Positions 4,100 to 36,846 of a DNA stretch of 64,000 nt are shown in pieces (within the stretch, counting starts at the first letter, position 1; each line of letters opens with the position of its first letter). The DNA comes from Candidatus Zymogenaceae bacterium (GTDB lineage Bacteria > Desulfobacterota > Zymogenia > Zymogenales > Zymogenaceae). The position numbers and the translations under genes were made by a program. The DNA is taken from assembly GCA_016933535.1 (NCBI GenBank), contig JAFGAS010000052.1:88757-152756 (forward strand), read 5' to 3'. The notes under the pieces were generated by a model. It was not told the DNA's origin, ran no database searches, and worked only from the letters and a program-made list of their open reading frames with translations.

Positions 4100-4969
4100 C
4101 TACAGATTCGGGTTGATCTCCTTTGCCTTCGTCCTGTCGGCCTGGGCACCCGCCTTATTGCCGAGCCCGTCCCGGGCCTTTGACCTCAGAAGATACGCCT
4201 CGGCATCGTCGGGGTTGGCGGTAATGACGCGGGTGATCGTTTCCTCGGCCCTGGCATATTCTTTTGAGGCGATATAGAGACGCCCAAGGTTGAGCGTGGC
4301 GTCCCTGTTGCCGGGTGCCAGGAAGAGGGCGCGGTTGAAGTCCGCGGCGGCAAGCTCACGCTTGCCCTGGTCGAGATAGATCTTGCCCCGGAGGTTATAG
4401 ACCTCGGGGTTGTCGGCCACCAGCAAAATATAGTTGTTGAGGTCTTTGAGGGCCTCGGAGCTCCGTTTCTTCTCGATGAGAAGGGATGCCCGATTGATGT
4501 AGGCCGAGGCCGACAGCGCGTTGGTTGCGATGGCCGCGTTGTAGTCGGCCAGCGCCCCGGCGACGTCACCCTTCTTTTCTTTAATGACTCCCCGGTTGTT
4601 GAGCGTATCGGGATTATTCGGGTCAAGCGCGAGGGCCGTTTCGTAATCGGCCAGCGCCTCGTTGATAAAGCCCTTACGATAGTAGGCGAGTCCCCTGTTG
4701 GTATAGATGAGGCCGTAGTTGGCGTCTACGTCATACTCGGGGGGGAATTTCAGCTTGGCGGCCCGCGTCAGAACGTCTATCGCCTCGTCGTATCTACCCT
4801 GTTCGATGAGGGCGGTCCCCGCGTTCAGGAGAACAAAGGAGTCTTCCTCGGCGGCGAGCGTCGGACCCGAAAAGGAGACGAGAAAGACCGCGGCCGTGAC
4901 GGCCCCCAGGAAGAGGGCGCGGGCGGCCCGCTTGGCGTGACCTGATTTTTTAATGTTGTTGGTTTTCAT
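4100..4969 (-). CDS. Exported tetratricopeptide-repeat (TPR) protein
   Basis: A 289-aa protein with an N-terminal basic stretch and hydrophobic signal segment (ARALFLGAVTAAVFLVSFSG) ending near LAAEE, then about seven consecutive TPR units such as YRKGFINEALADYETALALDPNN. TPR arrays bind protein partners and commonly act in envelope assembly or secretion. No catalytic domain is present. The following small membrane protein may share the transcript. Specific partner unknown. Confidence 0.8.
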   Translation of the reverse strand: MKTNNIKKSGHAKRAARALFLGAVTAAVFLVSFSGPTLAAEEDSFVLLNAGTALIEQGRYDEAIDVLTRAAKLKFPPEYDVDANYGLIYTNRGLAYYRKGFINEALADYETALALDPNNPDTLNNRGVIKEKKGDVAGALADYNAAIATNALSASAYINRASLLIEKKRSSEALKDLNNYILLVADNPEVYNLRGKIYLDQGKRELAAADFNRALFLAPGNRDATLNLGRLYIASKEYARAEETITRVITANPDDAEAYLLRSKARDGLGNKAGAQADRTKAKEINPNL

Positions 4970-5107
4970 AATGTTAAAATTCTACGACATACCGAAGCCC
5001 AAGTCAAGAACTATCCGAATGAGGGTCGTGTATCGAGATGTTTGGGACCGCGCGGGGGTGATCGCAATGAAAAATGAGAGAAAGTTACGACCGTTGTTCT
5101 CTTTGTT

Positions 5108-5171
5108 TTGACAAATGAGTCGGTAACGAGTATCGTACGCGTATTACCGCTTGAAAGCGGTCACGATACTC
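5108..5171 (+). promoter_or_regulatory. Promoter with nested inverted repeats upstream of SDR gene
   Basis: TTGACA (5108-5113), 17-nt spacer and TATCGT (5131-5136) form a good sigma-70-type promoter. The -10 region lies inside paired repeats: CGGTAA (5121-5126) with TTACCG (5144-5149), and GAGTATCG (5128-5135) with CGATACTC (5164-5171). ACCGC/GCGGT also makes a small hairpin. The arrangement suggests a repressor operator, for example TetR or FadR type, but no cognate regulator is in the window. Confidence 0.55.
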
Positions 5172-5244
5172 AGATTTTCGGCAAACCGATCGACGAGAAA
5201 AAATCCAGGACAAGACGTCGATTTATTACATTACGAGGGGATCA

Positions 5245-27209: not shown

Positions 27210-27410
27210 ATGACGACCATAAAAATAGAGGGAATGACGTGTAACCACTGCGTTATGGCGGTGACAAGGGCCCTGGAGGAAATCGATGGGATCAAAAACG
27301 TCAAGGTGGACCTCAAGAAGGGCCGGGCGACGTTCGACGAGGCCCAACCGGTCGACATGAAAACCATAAGGGAAAAAGTCGAGGATGCGGGCTACCGGGT
27401 AGCGCCATAG
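27210..27410 (+). CDS. Heavy-metal-associated (HMA) domain metallochaperone, CopZ-like
   Basis: A 66-aa single HMA domain with the metal-binding GMTCNHC loop near residue 8 and the beta-alpha-beta-beta-alpha-beta pattern ending DAGYRVAP. Such proteins bind Cu(I) or related soft metals and hand them to P-type ATPases or regulators. AGGTGACC is the ribosome-binding site. No copper ATPase is in the window, so the partner must lie elsewhere. Metal identity is not proven by the motif. Confidence 0.9.
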   Translation: MTTIKIEGMTCNHCVMAVTRALEEIDGIKNVKVDLKKGRATFDEAQPVDMKTIREKVEDAGYRVAP

Positions 27411-27510: not shown

Positions 27511-27547
27511 AGACGTGTATTATATATCATACGGGAGACCGGCCAAT

Positions 27548-28306
27548 ATGCTGCACATAGAAGATCTCAAAGTACAGATCGAAGGACGGGTAGTGCTCGA
27601 CGGGGTTAACCTGGACGTGCCTGAGGGCAAAACGCACGTGCTGTTCGGTCCCAACGGTTCCGGCAAGACCTCGCTGCTGATGACCATCATGGGTTTTGAG
27701 GAGTATAAGGTCTTGCGGGGCAAGATCTATTTCAGGGGAGAGGATATCACCGGTCTTCCGATTCACGAGCGGGCAAAACTCGGCATCGGGATGTCGTTTC
27801 AGCGCCCCCCCTCCGTCGATGGACTGAAACTCGGGGAGTTGATACACCTCATCGGGTGCGAGGAAGACAAGGTGGAAGAGATCGCATCCGAGATCAAGTT
27901 TGAGCATTTCCTGAATCGGGATGTAAATGTCGGGTTTTCAGGAGGAGAGATCAAGCGGTCGGAACTCCTGCAGCTCATGGCCCAACAGCCGGATTTGCTG
28001 CTGTTTGACGAGCCGGAATCGGGAGTGGATCTGGAGAGTATCGTGCTCATCGGCAAGACGATCAGTGATCTGCTCAAGGAACGGGACGGAGGCGGAAGGC
28101 GCTACTGCCTCAAGAAGGAGCGGGAGAAACGTAAACGGTCGGGGCTTATCATCACCCATACCGGCCATATTCTTGATTACGTTGATGCAGATGAGGGACA
28201 CGTTATATATAACGGTCGTATTGCCTGCGAGGCTAATCCGCGGGAGATACTGAGGGAGATCTCCGCCAACGGCTATGAGGAGTGTCTCAGATGTCTGACT
28301 CAATAG
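27548..28306 (+). CDS. sufC: SufC, Fe-S cluster assembly ATPase
   Basis: A 252-aa ABC-type ATPase. Walker A is GPNGSGKTS near residue 36, the Q-loop lies in MSFQRPPSV, the signature is FSGGEIKRSEL and Walker B is LLFDEPESGVDLES. The shortened signature and the Glu/Ser after Walker B are typical of SufC. It powers the SufB scaffold during Fe-S cluster assembly. The ORF-track GTG start adds 11 residues; ATG at 27548 with GGGAG upstream is preferred. It overlaps sufB by 16 bases, so translation is coupled. Confidence 0.92.
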   Translation: MLHIEDLKVQIEGRVVLDGVNLDVPEGKTHVLFGPNGSGKTSLLMTIMGFEEYKVLRGKIYFRGEDITGLPIHERAKLGIGMSFQRPPSVDGLKLGELIHLIGCEEDKVEEIASEIKFEHFLNRDVNVGFSGGEIKRSELLQLMAQQPDLLLFDEPESGVDLESIVLIGKTISDLLKERDGGGRRYCLKKEREKRKRSGLIITHTGHILDYVDADEGHVIYNGRIACEANPREILREISANGYEECLRCLTQ

Positions 28307-29466
28307 ATAACAAGAAGATCGTCGATCGGTTCGCCGGTGAAAAAAGGGAACATTCCTATATCGAAGACCTCGATTCGGTTTCCACGGCCGATAAGGAGCG
28401 GATGCGCCTGGCGGGGATCGATACAACCACACGGGAGCGCTCCGCCACGTACCTCCAGAAGGACCACAGCCTGGTGCACTGTAACGTCACCCAGGAGGGC
28501 CTGGAGGTCATGGATATCAAGACGGCGCTTGAAACCCACGGCTGGCTTAATGAATACGTCTGGCGCCTGGTAAAGCCGGATAAGGACGAGTTTACCAAGC
28601 AGGCCGATGAAGTGCCGCATCTCGGATATTTCATCCGGGCGCTGCCGGGGGTCAAATCACTCTCACCGGTACAGGCCTGTCTCTACCTGGCTACCGACAG
28701 TATTTCGCAGAACGTCCACAACATCATCATCGCCGAGGAGGGCTCCAATCTCCATATCATCACGGGATGTTCCACCGCGCCGGGGGTGGCGTCCGGGCTC
28801 CATATCGGCGTGTCGGAATTTTACGTCAAGAAGGGGGCAACGGTCTCGTTTACGATGATCCACAACTGGTCCGAAGGCGTGGTGGTGCGGCCGCGGTCTT
28901 CCATACGGGTTGAGGAAAACGGGCGGTTTATCAACAACTACATCGTCCTGAACCCCGTCGAATCGATCCAGATGTACCCCTCCACCCACCTGGTCGGTGA
29001 TAACGCCGTGACAAGTCTCAACTCGATCCTCGTGGCGCCAAAGGGCTCCCACCTTGATATCGGCGGCCGAGCCGTCCTTTCGGGAAAAAACACGCGGGCC
29101 GAGATTATCGCCCGGGCCATCACCACCGGGGGGACGATCTATTCCCGCGGGCAAATCGTCGGCGAGGTCCCGGGGGTCAAGGCCCACCTTGAATGCAAGG
29201 GCCTGATACTCGAGGGCGGGGGATCCATCATCGCAATACCCGAACTGGAGGGAAGGGCCGAAGACCTGGAGCTCTCGCACGAGGCCGCTGTGGGACGCAT
29301 TAACCAGTCGGAAATCAATTACCTCATGGCCCGGGGATTAACCGAGGACGAGGCCGTCGGGGTGATCGTACGGGGCTTTCTGCACGTCGATATCGAGGGA
29401 CTGCCGCCGGAGCTCAAAGAAGAGATCAGCCGAAATATCCAGAAGAGCCAGAAGGAGTATCTCTAA
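28291..29466 (+). CDS. sufB: SufB/SufD family scaffold protein
   Basis: A 392-aa member of the SufBD beta-helix family, with CSTAPGVASGLHIGVSEFYV, FINNYIVLNPVESIQMYPSTHLVG and C-terminal MARGLTEDEAVGVIVRGFL. It partners SufC as cluster scaffold. Only one SufBD subunit is encoded, without SufA, SufS, SufU or SufD. This matches the minimal SufBC systems of archaea and anaerobic bacteria. ATG at 28291 is chosen because TGAGGAG lies 8 bases upstream; the GTG at 28282 overlaps that site. Confidence 0.9.
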   Translation: MSDSIDNKKIVDRFAGEKREHSYIEDLDSVSTADKERMRLAGIDTTTRERSATYLQKDHSLVHCNVTQEGLEVMDIKTALETHGWLNEYVWRLVKPDKDEFTKQADEVPHLGYFIRALPGVKSLSPVQACLYLATDSISQNVHNIIIAEEGSNLHIITGCSTAPGVASGLHIGVSEFYVKKGATVSFTMIHNWSEGVVVRPRSSIRVEENGRFINNYIVLNPVESIQMYPSTHLVGDNAVTSLNSILVAPKGSHLDIGGRAVLSGKNTRAEIIARAITTGGTIYSRGQIVGEVPGVKAHLECKGLILEGGGSIIAIPELEGRAEDLELSHEAAVGRINQSEINYLMARGLTEDEAVGVIVRGFLHVDIEGLPPELKEEISRNIQKSQKEYL

Positions 29467-30428
29467 TGCTCGTGCTGGGTATTTCAGGAAGCCCGCGCAG
29501 GGGCGGAAACACCGATGAACTGCTCGCCGCGTTCCTAAAAGAGTCTCAGTCCCTCGGGGCCGAAACAAAAGAAATCATCCCGTCATCCATGACGATCAAA
29601 CCCTGTATCGAGTGCCGAACATGCGAAAAGACGGGGTTTTGTTCTCTTGACGACGATATGCAGCGGGTCTACGGCCTGCTGTGGAGGGCCGACGTGATCG
29701 CCGCTGCAAGCCCGATATTTTTCTACAGCGTAACGGCCTATCTCAAGGCACTGATAGACAGGACCCAGTGCCTCTGGGCCAGGCGCCGTTTGCTCAAGCT
29801 GACAGATCCCGGGGCGCGCTCCCGTAAGGGGCTATTTCTATCGGTCGGGGCCACAAGGGGAGAAAAGCTCTTCGAGGGCGCGGCATTGACGATGAAATAC
29901 TTCTTCGATGCGGTGGGTGCGGCGTTTGTCGGGGGGCTCTACTATCGGAAGATCGAGCATCCCGGCGATATCGTGAAACACCCGACGGCGGCTTCCGACG
30001 CTCGGGCGCTTGCCGGGGCGGTCGTAGGGCCGTTAATTGCGCGAAAAAAAATTCTCTACCTCTGCCGCGAGAACGCCTGCCGGAGCCAGATGGCCTGGGG
30101 ATTTACCCGGTTACTCGCCGGCGATCGGATCGAGGCCGTGAGTGCCGGCGATACGCCGGCCGCCGAGGTCAACGCCGATATGGTCGCGGTTATGGCCGAG
30201 CGGGGGATCGATATGGGTTTCGTCCGCCCCGGGTCCATTGCCGACGCGATTGCACCGGGTGAGCCTGCCGTCATCGTGTCGATGGGGTGCATGGATGCCT
30301 GCCCGGTGGTACCGGGAGCCGAGATCATGGACTGGGGGCTTGCCGACCCCGCCGGAAAGCCCATTGAATTTATGCGGGAGATGCGCGACGATATAGAGCG
30401 CAGGGTCAGGGAACTAATCGGTTCGTGA
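29466..30428 (+). CDS. NADPH-dependent FMN reductase fused to thioredoxin-type arsenate reductase/LMW phosphatase
   Basis: A 320-aa fusion. Residues 1-190 form an iron-sulfur-flavoprotein-like FMN reductase (GISGSPRRGGNTDELL, then CIECRTCEKTGFCSLDDDM). Residues 195-320 form a low-molecular-weight phosphatase fold with the CX5R loop Cys200-RENAC-Arg206, and Cys275 and Cys279 in MGCMDACPV. This is the cysteine set of thioredoxin-coupled ArsC, which reduces arsenate to arsenite. The start overlaps the sufB stop (TAATG), so it is translationally coupled to the suf operon. The fusion implies an internal electron or thiol relay, which is inference. Confidence 0.82.
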   Translation: MLVLGISGSPRRGGNTDELLAAFLKESQSLGAETKEIIPSSMTIKPCIECRTCEKTGFCSLDDDMQRVYGLLWRADVIAAASPIFFYSVTAYLKALIDRTQCLWARRRLLKLTDPGARSRKGLFLSVGATRGEKLFEGAALTMKYFFDAVGAAFVGGLYYRKIEHPGDIVKHPTAASDARALAGAVVGPLIARKKILYLCRENACRSQMAWGFTRLLAGDRIEAVSAGDTPAAEVNADMVAVMAERGIDMGFVRPGSIADAIAPGEPAVIVSMGCMDACPVVPGAEIMDWGLADPAGKPIEFMREMRDDIERRVRELIGS

Positions 30429-30505: not shown

Positions 30506-30664
30506 ATGGATAAGTATGTCTGCACGGTTTGCGGTTATGTCTATGATCCCGAAAAGGGCGACCCCGAAGGGGATATCGCGCCCGGCACCTCGTTTGAGAA
30601 GCTTCCCGATGACTGGACGTGTCCGGTTTGCGGGGCGGCAAAGAGCGAGTTCGAAAAGGAATAA
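30506..30664 (+). CDS. rub: Rubredoxin
   Basis: A 52-aa ORF below the ORF-track size limit. [15 protein letters not shown] and [15 protein letters not shown] contain the two CxxCG loops that ligate one Fe(Cys)4 centre, at the standard spacing and length. A strong GAGGAGG site precedes the ATG. Rubredoxin carries electrons to desulfoferrodoxin and rubrerythrin-type proteins in anaerobes, and genes for both kinds lie 4-6 kb downstream. Confidence 0.97.
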
Positions 30665-30696
30665 TAAGATTATCGTAGATTCAAAGGAGCATAGTC

Positions 30697-30945
30697 ATGG
30701 AAGAGCCGAAGGTAACCGTCTATTCGACCCCTACCTGACCCTACTGTAAAAAGGTGAAAGAGTTTCTTTTACAAAAAGGGATTACGTTTACGGACCATGA
30801 CGTCACTACGGATAAGGCCGCCCTCGAGGAGATGCGTAAAATCACCCAGGGAGGGCTCTCGGTTCCGGTGATTCATATCGCCGATGAGATTATCGTGGGC
30901 TTTGACGAAGAGCGGATCAGGAAGGCGCTCGATATAAAGCAGTAA
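30697..30945 (+). CDS. Selenocysteine-containing glutaredoxin-like protein (UPYC active site)
   Basis: Frame from ATG 30697 (AAAGGAGC site) reads MEEPKVTVYSTPT, then TGA at 30736-30738, then PYCKKVKEFLLQKG and a complete glutaredoxin C terminus, 82 aa in all. TGA replaces exactly the first Cys of the CPYC active site, so it most likely encodes selenocysteine (Sec14). A stem-loop suited to a bacterial SECIS follows directly. The cis-Pro block LSVPVIHIADEIIVGFDEERI is intact, which argues against decay. Standard gene calling shows only an N-truncated 63-aa ORF. Selenoprotein glutaredoxins are known in anaerobes; sel genes are not in this window. Confidence 0.88.
30739..30780 (+). promoter_or_regulatory. 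Putative bacterial SECIS element
   Basis: Starting right after the UGA, CCCT (30739-30742) pairs with AGGG (30777-30780). After a small AC/AAA internal loop, TGTAAAA (30745-30751) pairs with TTTTACA (30767-30773). The apical part contains AGGTG. Position, size and a G-rich apical loop fit SelB-recognised bacterial SECIS hairpins. Confidence 0.7.
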
Positions 30946-31094: not shown

Positions 31095-32282
31095 ATGAAA
31101 AAGGTTGCTATTTATACCCTTGCGGGGTGCCCCTTCTGTATTCGGGCCAAGAGTTTCCTTACCGAAAAGGGGATCGAGTACGAAGAGACAGAGGTAACGC
31201 CCCGATCCCGGCAATGGGAGGCAATGAAGAAGGCGACCGGGGGCGGCTCACTTCCGCAGATCGTTATCGATGAAAAGCCGATCGGTGGGTACGGGGACCT
31301 GATCCACCTTGAGGCAACGGGCGAGCTCTATGAGCTCCTCGACAAGCCGCTTACCGAAAAACCACCTCCATTGTACGACGTCATCATCATCGGCGGGGGG
31401 CCGGCGGGCCTGTCGGCGGCCGTCTATGCCGCCAGAAAAATGATGAAGACGATCCTCATATCTAAAAACATCGGGGGACAGGTAACCGACACCTTTGACA
31501 TCGAAAACTATCTGGGCTTTTCGGAAATTGAGACTGCCGACCTCATCGGTAGATTCGAGGAGCACGTGGTCAAGTATGGAGTAAAAAAACTCGTAGGTCC
31601 CGAGGTGGTGTCGCTGGACCTTACCGGAAAAATAAAGAAGGTGTTTGTCGACGACGGTAAGATTTGTCTCGGGCGCACGATCATCCTTGCCATGGGCAAA
31701 CGTCCGCGGCCGCTTAACGTACCGGGGGAAAAGGAGCTGGTGGGCAAGGGGGTCGCGTATTGCTCCACGTGCGACGCGCCGCTTTTTGCTGACATGGATA
31801 CGGCGGTAGTCGGCGGGGGCAACTCGGCGCTGGAGGCGGCGCTGGATCTGGCCAACGTGGCGCGCAAGGTATACCTTATCTCGATCACGCCGCTGACGGG
31901 AGACCCGATCCTCGTGGATAAGCTGAAATCGTCGGGAAAGGTGGAGGTGTTTACCGAGTACTCGACCAATAGGATCATCGGGCAGCAGGTGGTCGAGGGC
32001 ATCGAGATACAGGGTCTGGACGAAAAAAAAACCAGGCGGCTGGACGTCCAGGGCGTCTTCATCGAGATCGGGCTCCTTCCCAATTCCGACCTTGTGGTCG
32101 ATACGCTCAACGTCAACAAGACCGGCGAGATCCTGGTCGACTGTGAATGCCGAACGGGAATCTCGGGCGTCTTTGCGGCAGGAGACGTTACCGACGTTCC
32201 CTTCAAGCAGGTGATTATCGCCGCGGGTGAGGGGGCAAAGGCGGCACTGTCGGCGTATAACTTTCTCATGAAACAGATATAG
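31095..32282 (+). CDS. Glutaredoxin-thioredoxin reductase fusion
   Basis: A 395-aa protein. Residues 1-85 form a glutaredoxin domain with Cys12-PF-Cys15 and LPQIVIDEKPIGGYGDL. Residues 93-395 form an FAD/NAD(P)H disulfide reductase (VIIIGGGPAGLSAAVYAARK, then AVVGGGNSALEAALDLA) with the redox pair Cys223-ST-Cys226 and an FAAGDVTDVPFKQ FAD site. The usual ATCDG is STCDA here. The fusion probably reduces its own glutaredoxin domain or nearby partners such as the selenocysteine glutaredoxin and Tpx. An all-in-one arrangement resembles AhpF in logic. Confidence 0.9.
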   Translation: MKKVAIYTLAGCPFCIRAKSFLTEKGIEYEETEVTPRSRQWEAMKKATGGGSLPQIVIDEKPIGGYGDLIHLEATGELYELLDKPLTEKPPPLYDVIIIGGGPAGLSAAVYAARKMMKTILISKNIGGQVTDTFDIENYLGFSEIETADLIGRFEEHVVKYGVKKLVGPEVVSLDLTGKIKKVFVDDGKICLGRTIILAMGKRPRPLNVPGEKELVGKGVAYCSTCDAPLFADMDTAVVGGGNSALEAALDLANVARKVYLISITPLTGDPILVDKLKSSGKVEVFTEYSTNRIIGQQVVEGIEIQGLDEKKTRRLDVQGVFIEIGLLPNSDLVVDTLNVNKTGEILVDCECRTGISGVFAAGDVTDVPFKQVIIAAGEGAKAALSAYNFLMKQI

Positions 32283-35051: not shown

Positions 35052-35429
35052 ATGACTAAGAGACTTGAGATCTATAAGTGTGAGGTTTGTGGAAACATAG
35101 TGGAGGTGGTACATACGGGTGCAGGGGAGCTTGTCTGCTGCGGGCAGCCGATGATCCTCCTGACTGAAAACAGCGTGGATGCCGCCAAGGAAAAACATGT
35201 TCCGGTTGGGGAAAAGACGGCCGACGGTATGACCGTAAAGGTCGGCAGCGTCCCCCACCCGATGGAAGAAAAACACTATATCGAATGGATCGAGATCATC
35301 GACACCCAGGGAAAGGCATACCGGAAATTCCTCAAACCGGGCGATACGCCCGAGGCGGCTTTTTGCGTTCCGGAGGGCGCATACACCCTTCGGGAGTACT
35401 GCAATTTGCACGGTTTATGGAAGGGGTAG
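35052..35429 (+). CDS. dfx: Desulfoferrodoxin (class II superoxide reductase)
   Basis: A 125-aa two-domain protein. The N-terminal desulforedoxin centre has Cys10, Cys13, Cys29 and Cys30. The C-terminal superoxide reductase domain has its His/Cys ligands in [24 protein letters not shown] and EYCNLHGLW. It reduces superoxide to peroxide with electrons from rubredoxin, whose gene lies 4.5 kb upstream. Ferritin follows after only four bases, so the two are almost certainly one operon. Confidence 0.96.
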
Positions 35430-35433
35430 AATC

Positions 35434-35943
35434 ATGATCAATAAAAAGATAGAAGAGGCGCTCAACAGGCAGATGGTGGCCGAGACCTATTCCGGCTATA
35501 TCTACCTGGCGATGGCGGCCGACTTCGATGCGCAGAACATGAAGGGCTTCGGCCGCTGGATGAAGTCCCAGGCGCTGGAAGAGCTCTTCCACGCCATGAA
35601 GTTCTATGACTTCATCAACGACCGCGGCGGCAGGGCCGTATGCGGCGCCGTGGATGCGCCCCCGGCCAAGTGGAAGACCCCCCTGGACGCGTTTAAGGCA
35701 GCCTATGATCACGAGGTGAAAGTCACCGGGATGATCAACGATCTGGTGGACCTTGCGCGCAGCCAGAACGATAAGGCGACCGAGAATTTTCTGCAATGGT
35801 ACGTGAACGAGCAGGTCGAAGAGGAAGCCCAGACCGACGAGATCGTCAAAAACCTCGAAAAGATCAAGGATCACCCGGCTGCCCTCTTTATGTACGACGC
35901 CAGGCTCGGGGAGAGAACGGCCCAGTGGGGGGGCGGGGATTAG
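35434..35943 (+). CDS. ftn: Ferritin
   Basis: A 169-aa four-helix ferritin. The diiron ferroxidase ligands are visible: Glu17 in VAETYSGY, Glu50 and His53 in EELFHAMKF, Glu94 in AYDHEVKV and the EQVEEE segment. It stores iron and limits Fenton chemistry, and is located directly behind desulfoferrodoxin. AAGGGGT acts as ribosome-binding site. Length and C-terminal LGERTAQWG fit bacterial FtnA-like proteins. Confidence 0.94.
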   Translation: MINKKIEEALNRQMVAETYSGYIYLAMAADFDAQNMKGFGRWMKSQALEELFHAMKFYDFINDRGGRAVCGAVDAPPAKWKTPLDAFKAAYDHEVKVTGMINDLVDLARSQNDKATENFLQWYVNEQVEEEAQTDEIVKNLEKIKDHPAALFMYDARLGERTAQWGGGD

Positions 35944-36312
35944 ATGCAACCGTACGGGGCCGCTTACCGTAACCTTATTTCTTATGGCAGCGCGATCTCG
36001 CGAAACGGTCGTGGGGGGGTAGACTCCCCCCTACCACCGGCATAATAGTGACGGCTCCGAGACGGTACGCAGCCGACGGCTGTGCCGGAGACGAACGAGA
36101 CATTTCTGTCGGCCGGCATTGAGAAGACCGCCGCCGAACCGGGACGGCCCTTACCGAATCCATGATAAATGTGCCGGCTCTCCCGGGGGGGCGGGCGGAT
36201 ATGATAATCCATAATGAAATGAACCGTCCCCTGATTTAACGAGATCAACGGTCGACCGCGGCGGGAGGCTTGAGCCGCCCGGCCGCACTAAACCATTTAT
36301 GGAGTGGTACAG
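35944..36312. other. Intergenic region with G7/C6 hairpin and GC-rich dyads
   Basis: A 369-base gap without a supported ORF. GTGGGGGGG-TAGACT-CCCCCCTACCAC (36011-36038) is a strong hairpin whose TAGACT loop resembles the hairpins near 1985 and 44690. GGTACGCAGCC and GGCTGTGCC form another imperfect dyad. These look like dispersed palindromic repeats and may end the ferritin transcript. Confidence 0.45.
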
Positions 36313-36846
36313 ATGAGCAATACGCCGGAATCATCACTGGAGATGCTGGACAAGGCCCTCGAAATGGAAAAGAAGGGAAAAGATTTTTACGAGAAGGCCG
36401 CCGTCAATTGTCAAAATGAATTAGGCAGAGAGGTTTTCCAGACCCTCAAGCGGGACGAGGACGTTCACATCGCGCGGATTATGGATATTTACAACAATCT
36501 TACGAAAGGCGGCCAGTGGAGCTCCGAATGGAAGGCAAAGGACTTTTCACACGGCGACCTTACCGCCTTTTTTTCGGACCTGGCCCATAAACACCGGAAC
36601 CAAACTACCGCGGATGCCTCAGATATCCAGGCCCTCGAGATCGGCATTGACTTCGAGCTAGGATCGGTGACGTTCTATGAGCAGAGGCTGGCGGCCGCCG
36701 AAGATACGCTCGAGCGCGAGTTTATCGGCCGGATGGTTGTGGAGGAGAAGAGTCATCACAATATCCTCCAGGACGCCAAGCTCTACCTGACCGATCCCTC
36801 GTCCTGGTTTCAGGAGCATGAACGGGGCGGACTGGACGGGGCGTAG
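36313..36846 (+). CDS. Rubrerythrin-like ferritin-family diiron protein
   Basis: A 177-aa four-helix protein of the rubrerythrin erythrin-domain type. Helix-1 ligand region is ALEMEKKGKDFYEKAA, helix 2 has RDEDVHIARI, helix 3 has IGIDFELGSVTFYE and helix 4 has VVEEKSHHNIL. No C-terminal rubredoxin domain is present, so rubredoxin would have to act in trans. The ORF-track GTG start overlaps the GGAG site; ATG at 36313 is used. A peroxide-reduction or iron-oxidation role is inferred from family and location. Confidence 0.85.
   Translation: MSNTPESSLEMLDKALEMEKKGKDFYEKAAVNCQNELGREVFQTLKRDEDVHIARIMDIYNNLTKGGQWSSEWKAKDFSHGDLTAFFSDLAHKHRNQTTADASDIQALEIGIDFELGSVTFYEQRLAAAEDTLEREFIGRMVVEEKSHHNILQDAKLYLTDPSSWFQEHERGGLDGA

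Follow-up and report, generated by a model that had tools for sequence, protein, structure and literature searches.

The closest described systems are the thioredoxin-dependent arsenate reductases Cg_ArsC1' (structure 3t38) and pI258 ArsC (structure 1lk0) on one side, and the iron-sulfur flavoprotein Isf and the YwqN/FMN_red flavoproteins on the other. The catalytic cysteines of Cg_ArsC1' are C88, C162 and C166, and ArsC has also been found joined to other functional modules, in the ArsR-ArsC and Acr3-ArsC fusions (PMC6514093). For Isf, the published cysteine motif is CX2CX2CX5-7C (PMC3164229). The window, by which we mean the whole stretch of 64,000 nucleotides that was analysed, carries a gene in which an ArsC domain with putative activity is likewise part of a larger chain; its partner, however, is a putative electron-donating flavoprotein, whereas in the two known fusions it is a regulator (ArsR) or a transporter (Acr3). 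Each domain is known singly. The earlier note on this DNA did not know of the fusion as characterised, and the open-licence literature gave no description of the architecture either; an earlier description elsewhere is possible.

The fusion gene and its two domains

The gene and its parts, all on the + strand, are as follows.
29464..29468, +, TAATG, the stop codon of sufB overlapping the start of the fusion gene (from the sequence)
29466..30428, +, fusion gene of 320 aa, FMN_red-type flavin domain plus ArsC/LMWPc domain (translation, Pfam, full-length homologues)
29466..30026, +, N-terminal flavodoxin-fold domain, residues 1-187, with an SGSPRRGGNT phosphate loop (PF03358; Foldseek to azoreductase/SsuE/YwqN)
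29604..29642, +, Isf-type motif C47-x2-C50-x2-C53-x5-C59 (alignment of 44 fusions; motif definition from PMC3164229)
30042..30425, +, C-terminal ArsC/LMWPc domain, residues 193-320 (PF01451; rmsd to 1lk0 of 1.7 A)
30063..30086, +, active-site loop C200-RENAC-R206-S207 (sequence, alignment)
30288..30302, +, second cysteine pair C275-MDA-C279 (sequence, alignment)

The reading frame from 29466 to 30428 was open throughout and gave 320 aa plus a stop codon, and both domains were found above the Pfam gathering score, FMN_red (PF03358) at residues 1-130 with E 3.8e-19 and LMWPc (PF01451) at residues 196-317 with E 5.4e-11. The predicted structure of the window protein was confident for both domains (pLDDT 95.5, pTM 0.92), with a helix at residues 175-191 that passes into the ArsC domain at its first strand. 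The final A of the sufB stop TAA (29464-29466) was also the first A of the fusion ATG (29466-29468), a one-base overlap, and GGAG was present just 5' of this ATG. These data bear out the earlier note in its description of one 320-aa chain made of a flavin reductase and ArsC, in the TAATG overlap with sufB, and in the residues it named (Cys200-x5-Arg206, Cys205, Cys275 and Cys279), each of which was found in the translated protein. The frameshift or assembly join between the domains against which it had warned was ruled out: full-length homologues without internal stops recur in other genomes across the phylum, so the fusion is neither a chance product nor an assembly join.

The N-terminal domain shares with Isf and the YwqN/FMN_red flavoproteins the flavodoxin-like fold (Pfam, Foldseek), the FMN_red profile, a CX2CX2CX5C motif and anaerobic hosts; the fusion differs from them in its additional C-terminal ArsC domain and in the absence of the second motif cysteine from 12 of the 44 aligned members, and its cofactors are predicted. 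Top Foldseek matches of the window model included azoreductase, SsuE and YwqN-type flavoproteins, and the sequence matches included no PDB entry under the name Isf. The spacing of Cys47, Cys50, Cys53 and Cys59 in the window protein agreed with the compact Isf motif. C47, C53 and C59 were present in 44/44 aligned fusions and C50, one of the four presumed cluster ligands, in 32/44, which is also the number with the complete motif. Loss of Cys50 follows a single clade, whose ArsC domains decay as well, and is therefore taken as one event.

The C-terminal domain has in common with Cg_ArsC1' and pI258 ArsC the fold, the CX5RS loop, the catalytic triad and a second cysteine pair in the signature MGCxxxCP...W...DP. 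By Foldseek it was placed at 1.7 A from the disulfide-intermediate structure of pI258 ArsC (1lk0) and also matched Cg_ArsC1', whose structure 3t38 was the closest solved one by sequence. The window protein combines PF01451 above the cut-off, the C200-x5-R206 loop of the LMW-PTPase fold and the Foldseek matches to ArsC with the C275/C279 redox pair that a disulfide cascade needs; with S207 and D294-P295 it thus has the full residue kit of a thioredoxin-type ArsC, and its C200, C275 and C279 are the motif counterparts of C88, C162 and C166 of Cg_ArsC1'. It scored below the NCBIfam ArsC equivalog/subfamily cut-offs (TIGR02689, 75.9 vs 157.6; PRK13530, 64.4 vs 215; TIGR02691, 59.3 vs 174.3). Among the aligned fusions C275 was kept in 37/44 and C279 in 36/44, and the triad C200/C275/C279 was intact in most members; Cys205 would by this measure be dispensable, since several triad-bearing members have Gly, Tyr or Arg in its place. 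Unlike in Cg_ArsC1' and pI258 ArsC, the domain sits behind a flavin domain in oxygen-defence or Suf neighbourhoods, and its active site is missing, with Cys200 lost, in 8/44 fusion members.

Distribution and descent of the fusion

Full-length fusions without internal stops were found in 35 of the 395 genomes sampled from the phylum (window genome counted), distributed over 15 families, and ten additional fusion loci lay outside that sample, among them L016, which is truncated by a contig end. The fusion was absent from 300 genomes sampled in the phylum of locus L021 (E <= 1e-50), and none was apparent outside the phylum in a genome-contig scan that used short peptide patterns. Judged from sequence, the fusion is genuine, a two-domain protein that belongs to bacteria of the sulfate-reducer type.

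A maximum likelihood tree of the flavin domains, rooted at the midpoint, set 48 clade rows against 18 stand-alone flavin proteins, and the 48-row fusion clade received support of 100/99. It comprised 37 fusions with intact ArsC residues, eight without the catalytic Cys200 (L015, L017, L086, L088, L091, L092, L093 and L097) and three proteins of family f50 ending near residue 190. Nested in the fusion clade, family f50 has retained the flavin domain while the whole ArsC domain is gone, and its short proteins are best read as a secondary loss of that domain; the tree supports a single origin among the sampled sequences, and its simplest reading is one fusion event, followed by decay and by one domain loss (f50). 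Homologues stopping at about residue 190, which the earlier note would have held against the fusion, do therefore exist, but they are either outgroup stand-alone flavin proteins or f50 and leave the fusion standing. A pre-fusion state with adjacent separate flavin and ArsC genes was seen at none of the stand-alone loci, and a seeming split in G372/L103 gave no match with the ArsC profile.

For seven close pairs dN/dS in the N-half was about 0.07-0.25, and the C-half gave 0.10-0.21; these low values in both halves indicate that both domains are under purifying selection. When degenerate members were compared with intact ones, identity of the N-domain was unchanged at 56%, whereas that of the C-domain was 40% vs 54%. 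The active-site-dead L091 was predicted still to fold (pLDDT 93.7, pTM 0.92). In our interpretation the flavin domain forms the conserved core, with the ArsC domain as an intact yet dispensable partner, and the series from intact through active-site-dead to domain-lost proteins in one clade offers natural controls for the role of the ArsC half. Another LMWPc protein was present in 4/6 genomes with a degenerate fusion vs 10/29 with an intact one, some of these proteins resembling phosphatases and not ArsC; a link between active-site loss and a second LMWPc protein in the genome is suggestive at most.

Neighbouring genes and the possible role

The genes around the fusion in the window, all on the + strand, include the following.
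27515..28306, +, sufC (ABC_tran; orthologue order conserved in L066)
28282..29466, +, sufB (SUFBD_core)
30507..30665, +, rubredoxin
31095..32282, +, glutaredoxin-thioredoxin-reductase-like fusion
35052..35429, +, desulfoferrodoxin (superoxide reductase, SOR)
35434..35943, +, ferritin
36304..36846, +, rubrerythrin-like protein

The same run also holds an HMA-domain ORF, a glutaredoxin-like ORF, a thiol-peroxidase-like protein and a Rieske-like protein. Within 5 kb of the 45 fusion loci we counted SOR at 20, rubredoxin:oxygen oxidoreductase (ROO) at 19, rubrerythrin at 18, flavodoxin at 25, cytochrome c3 at 13 and sufB at 10, vs 0 for each of them in the same interval around 21 stand-alone relatives; these figures are counts and not probabilities, the loci being non-independent, the groups coming from different organisms and some loci being cut by contig ends. 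At least one oxygen-defence marker was found at 27/45 fusion loci, from 11/15 families, and 18/45 had none within 5 kb, seven of these having sufB/sufC instead. The gene directly upstream varied (sufB, cytochrome c3, FTR beta chain, DUF166 or flavodoxin), and rubredoxin-ROO often followed directly 3' of the fusion. The TAATG overlap with sufB was observed in the window genome alone; most members have another upstream gene, and in the sister genome L066 a 10-nt gap separates sufB from the fusion. The idea in the earlier note that the Suf location reflects a role in protecting or sensing Fe-S assembly thus held in part: the association with Fe-S and oxidative stress was retained, but Suf lay at only 10/45 loci (f1, f11 and f49) and the link with oxygen/ROS defence was broader, so that a Suf-specific partner is at most a lineage-limited description.

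The reading that we favour, with somewhat less than even confidence, is that of a flavin/Fe-S-driven thiol redox enzyme of anaerobe oxygen defence in which ArsC chemistry is accessory. The N-terminal flavodoxin-fold domain, as the probable core of the protein, would bind FMN, would hold an Fe-S cluster through the Isf-type CX2CX2CX5C motif, and may receive electrons from NAD(P)H or from a local carrier such as rubredoxin, flavodoxin, cytochrome c3 or ferredoxin. In intact members Cys200 would attack the oxyanion and Cys275 and Cys279 would close a disulfide, which the N-domain could reduce inside the chain or a dimer, and the C-domain may in this way act on arsenate, or on another thiol-reactive substrate like it, as a reductase that needs no separate thioredoxin. 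A presumably accessory C-domain would explain why the active site or the whole domain was lost in lineages that keep the flavin domain; the same losses, of Cys200 in eight fusions and of the domain in f50, mean that feeding the ArsC disulfide from the flavin, which the earlier note had put forward as a possibility, is not a universal role. If the flavin domain does reduce this disulfide directly, the protein would be an arsenate-reductase-type enzyme with a built-in reductase. It is possible, though doubtful, that the protein is a wholly self-contained enzyme of this kind, with reductase and ArsC catalyst in one thioredoxin-free chain serving the oxygen/Fe-S stress response of sulfate-reducer relatives, and that a sub-lineage made the ArsC half non-catalytic or dropped it. 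Strict anaerobes have SOR, ROO and rubrerythrin genes for oxygen defence, and the fusion represents a recurring, unstudied addition to this set.

The strongest rival to the oxygen-defence thiol enzyme holds that the protein is a flavoprotein resembling Isf and passes electrons to O2, to H2O2 or to a partner carrier, for example rubredoxin, on behalf of ROO/SOR. The ArsC-fold domain would then have no enzyme activity of its own and would serve for docking or redox sensing, with its cysteines registering oxidation. Cruz and Ferry reportedly studied the interaction of Isf with O2 and H2O2 in 2006, a work cited in PMC4338226. Retention of the N-domain where the C-domain is dead or lost is consistent with this proposal, as are the predicted folding of the degenerate C-domain of L091 and the frequent position of rubredoxin-ROO immediately 3'; however, most members keep the complete ArsC set (CX5RS, cysteine pair, DP) under purifying selection, and docking alone would not need it. 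We regard this alternative as tentative and rather unlikely.

Several further features were observed in these neighbourhoods. An HMA-domain ORF lies 5' of the fusion in the window (27210-27410) and in L066, L068, L070 and L073, and an HMA-bearing ATPase-like gene lies 5' of it in L064 and L066; the upstream HMA genes suggest a link with metal stress. The glutaredoxin-like ORF (30697-30945, + strand) contains an in-frame TGA at 30736, at the first Cys of CPYC; at this position L064 and L066 encode Cys in the orthologous ORF, which makes selenocysteine likely. The window genome gave a tRNA-Sec match of 75.6 bits; SelB above the cut-off was not found in this 89% complete genome and was present in both sister genomes (L064 and L066). 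Downstream of the fusion gene in L083, a rubrerythrin-like N-terminus is fused to a histidine kinase (4193-5212).

Possible arsenate reductase or phosphatase activity

ArsC usually, though not obligatorily, sits with ars genes. A tblastn search around the 45 fusion loci detected neither acr3 nor arsR nor a second arsC at any of them, and an arsenic-operon gene was thereby ruled out. In 22/35 fusion genomes acr3 was present above the cut-off, on a different contig or far off, and it was absent at that cut-off from 12/29 genomes with an intact fusion, in which arsenate is therefore possibly not the substrate. A separate LMWPc protein occurred in 14/35 fusion genomes and PF03960 ArsC in 0 of the 35. 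The window genome (89% complete) has the fusion as the sole LMWPc protein found, and its acr3, on another contig, follows ORFs for thioredoxin-like and membrane proteins. The stretch listed around it contained no arsC, and the fusion could serve this acr3 at a distance.

Such service forms the basis of a second alternative, an ordinary arsenate reductase for a distant Acr3 that is reduced by thioredoxin or glutaredoxin, with the flavin domain engaged in an unrelated task and the fusion just providing co-regulation. We consider it improbable: the full ArsC residue set, the status of the fusion as the only ArsC-like protein found in the acr3-bearing window genome, and the Grx/TrxR genes adjoining the fusion there and in some relatives speak for it, but the lack of ars genes near all 45 loci and the 12 intact-fusion genomes without acr3 above the cut-off speak against it. 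A tyrosine or arginine protein phosphatase under flavin redox control is very unlikely despite the LMW-PTPase fold and CX5R loop, as the ArsC structures (E 1e-28 to 1e-16) outscored the YwlE phosphatases (E 1e-11 and weaker) in the profile comparison and the C275/C279 pair is an ArsC signature. In one genome, an ArsR-ArsC fusion (L116, 13878-14729) was found together with a flavin-ArsC fusion.
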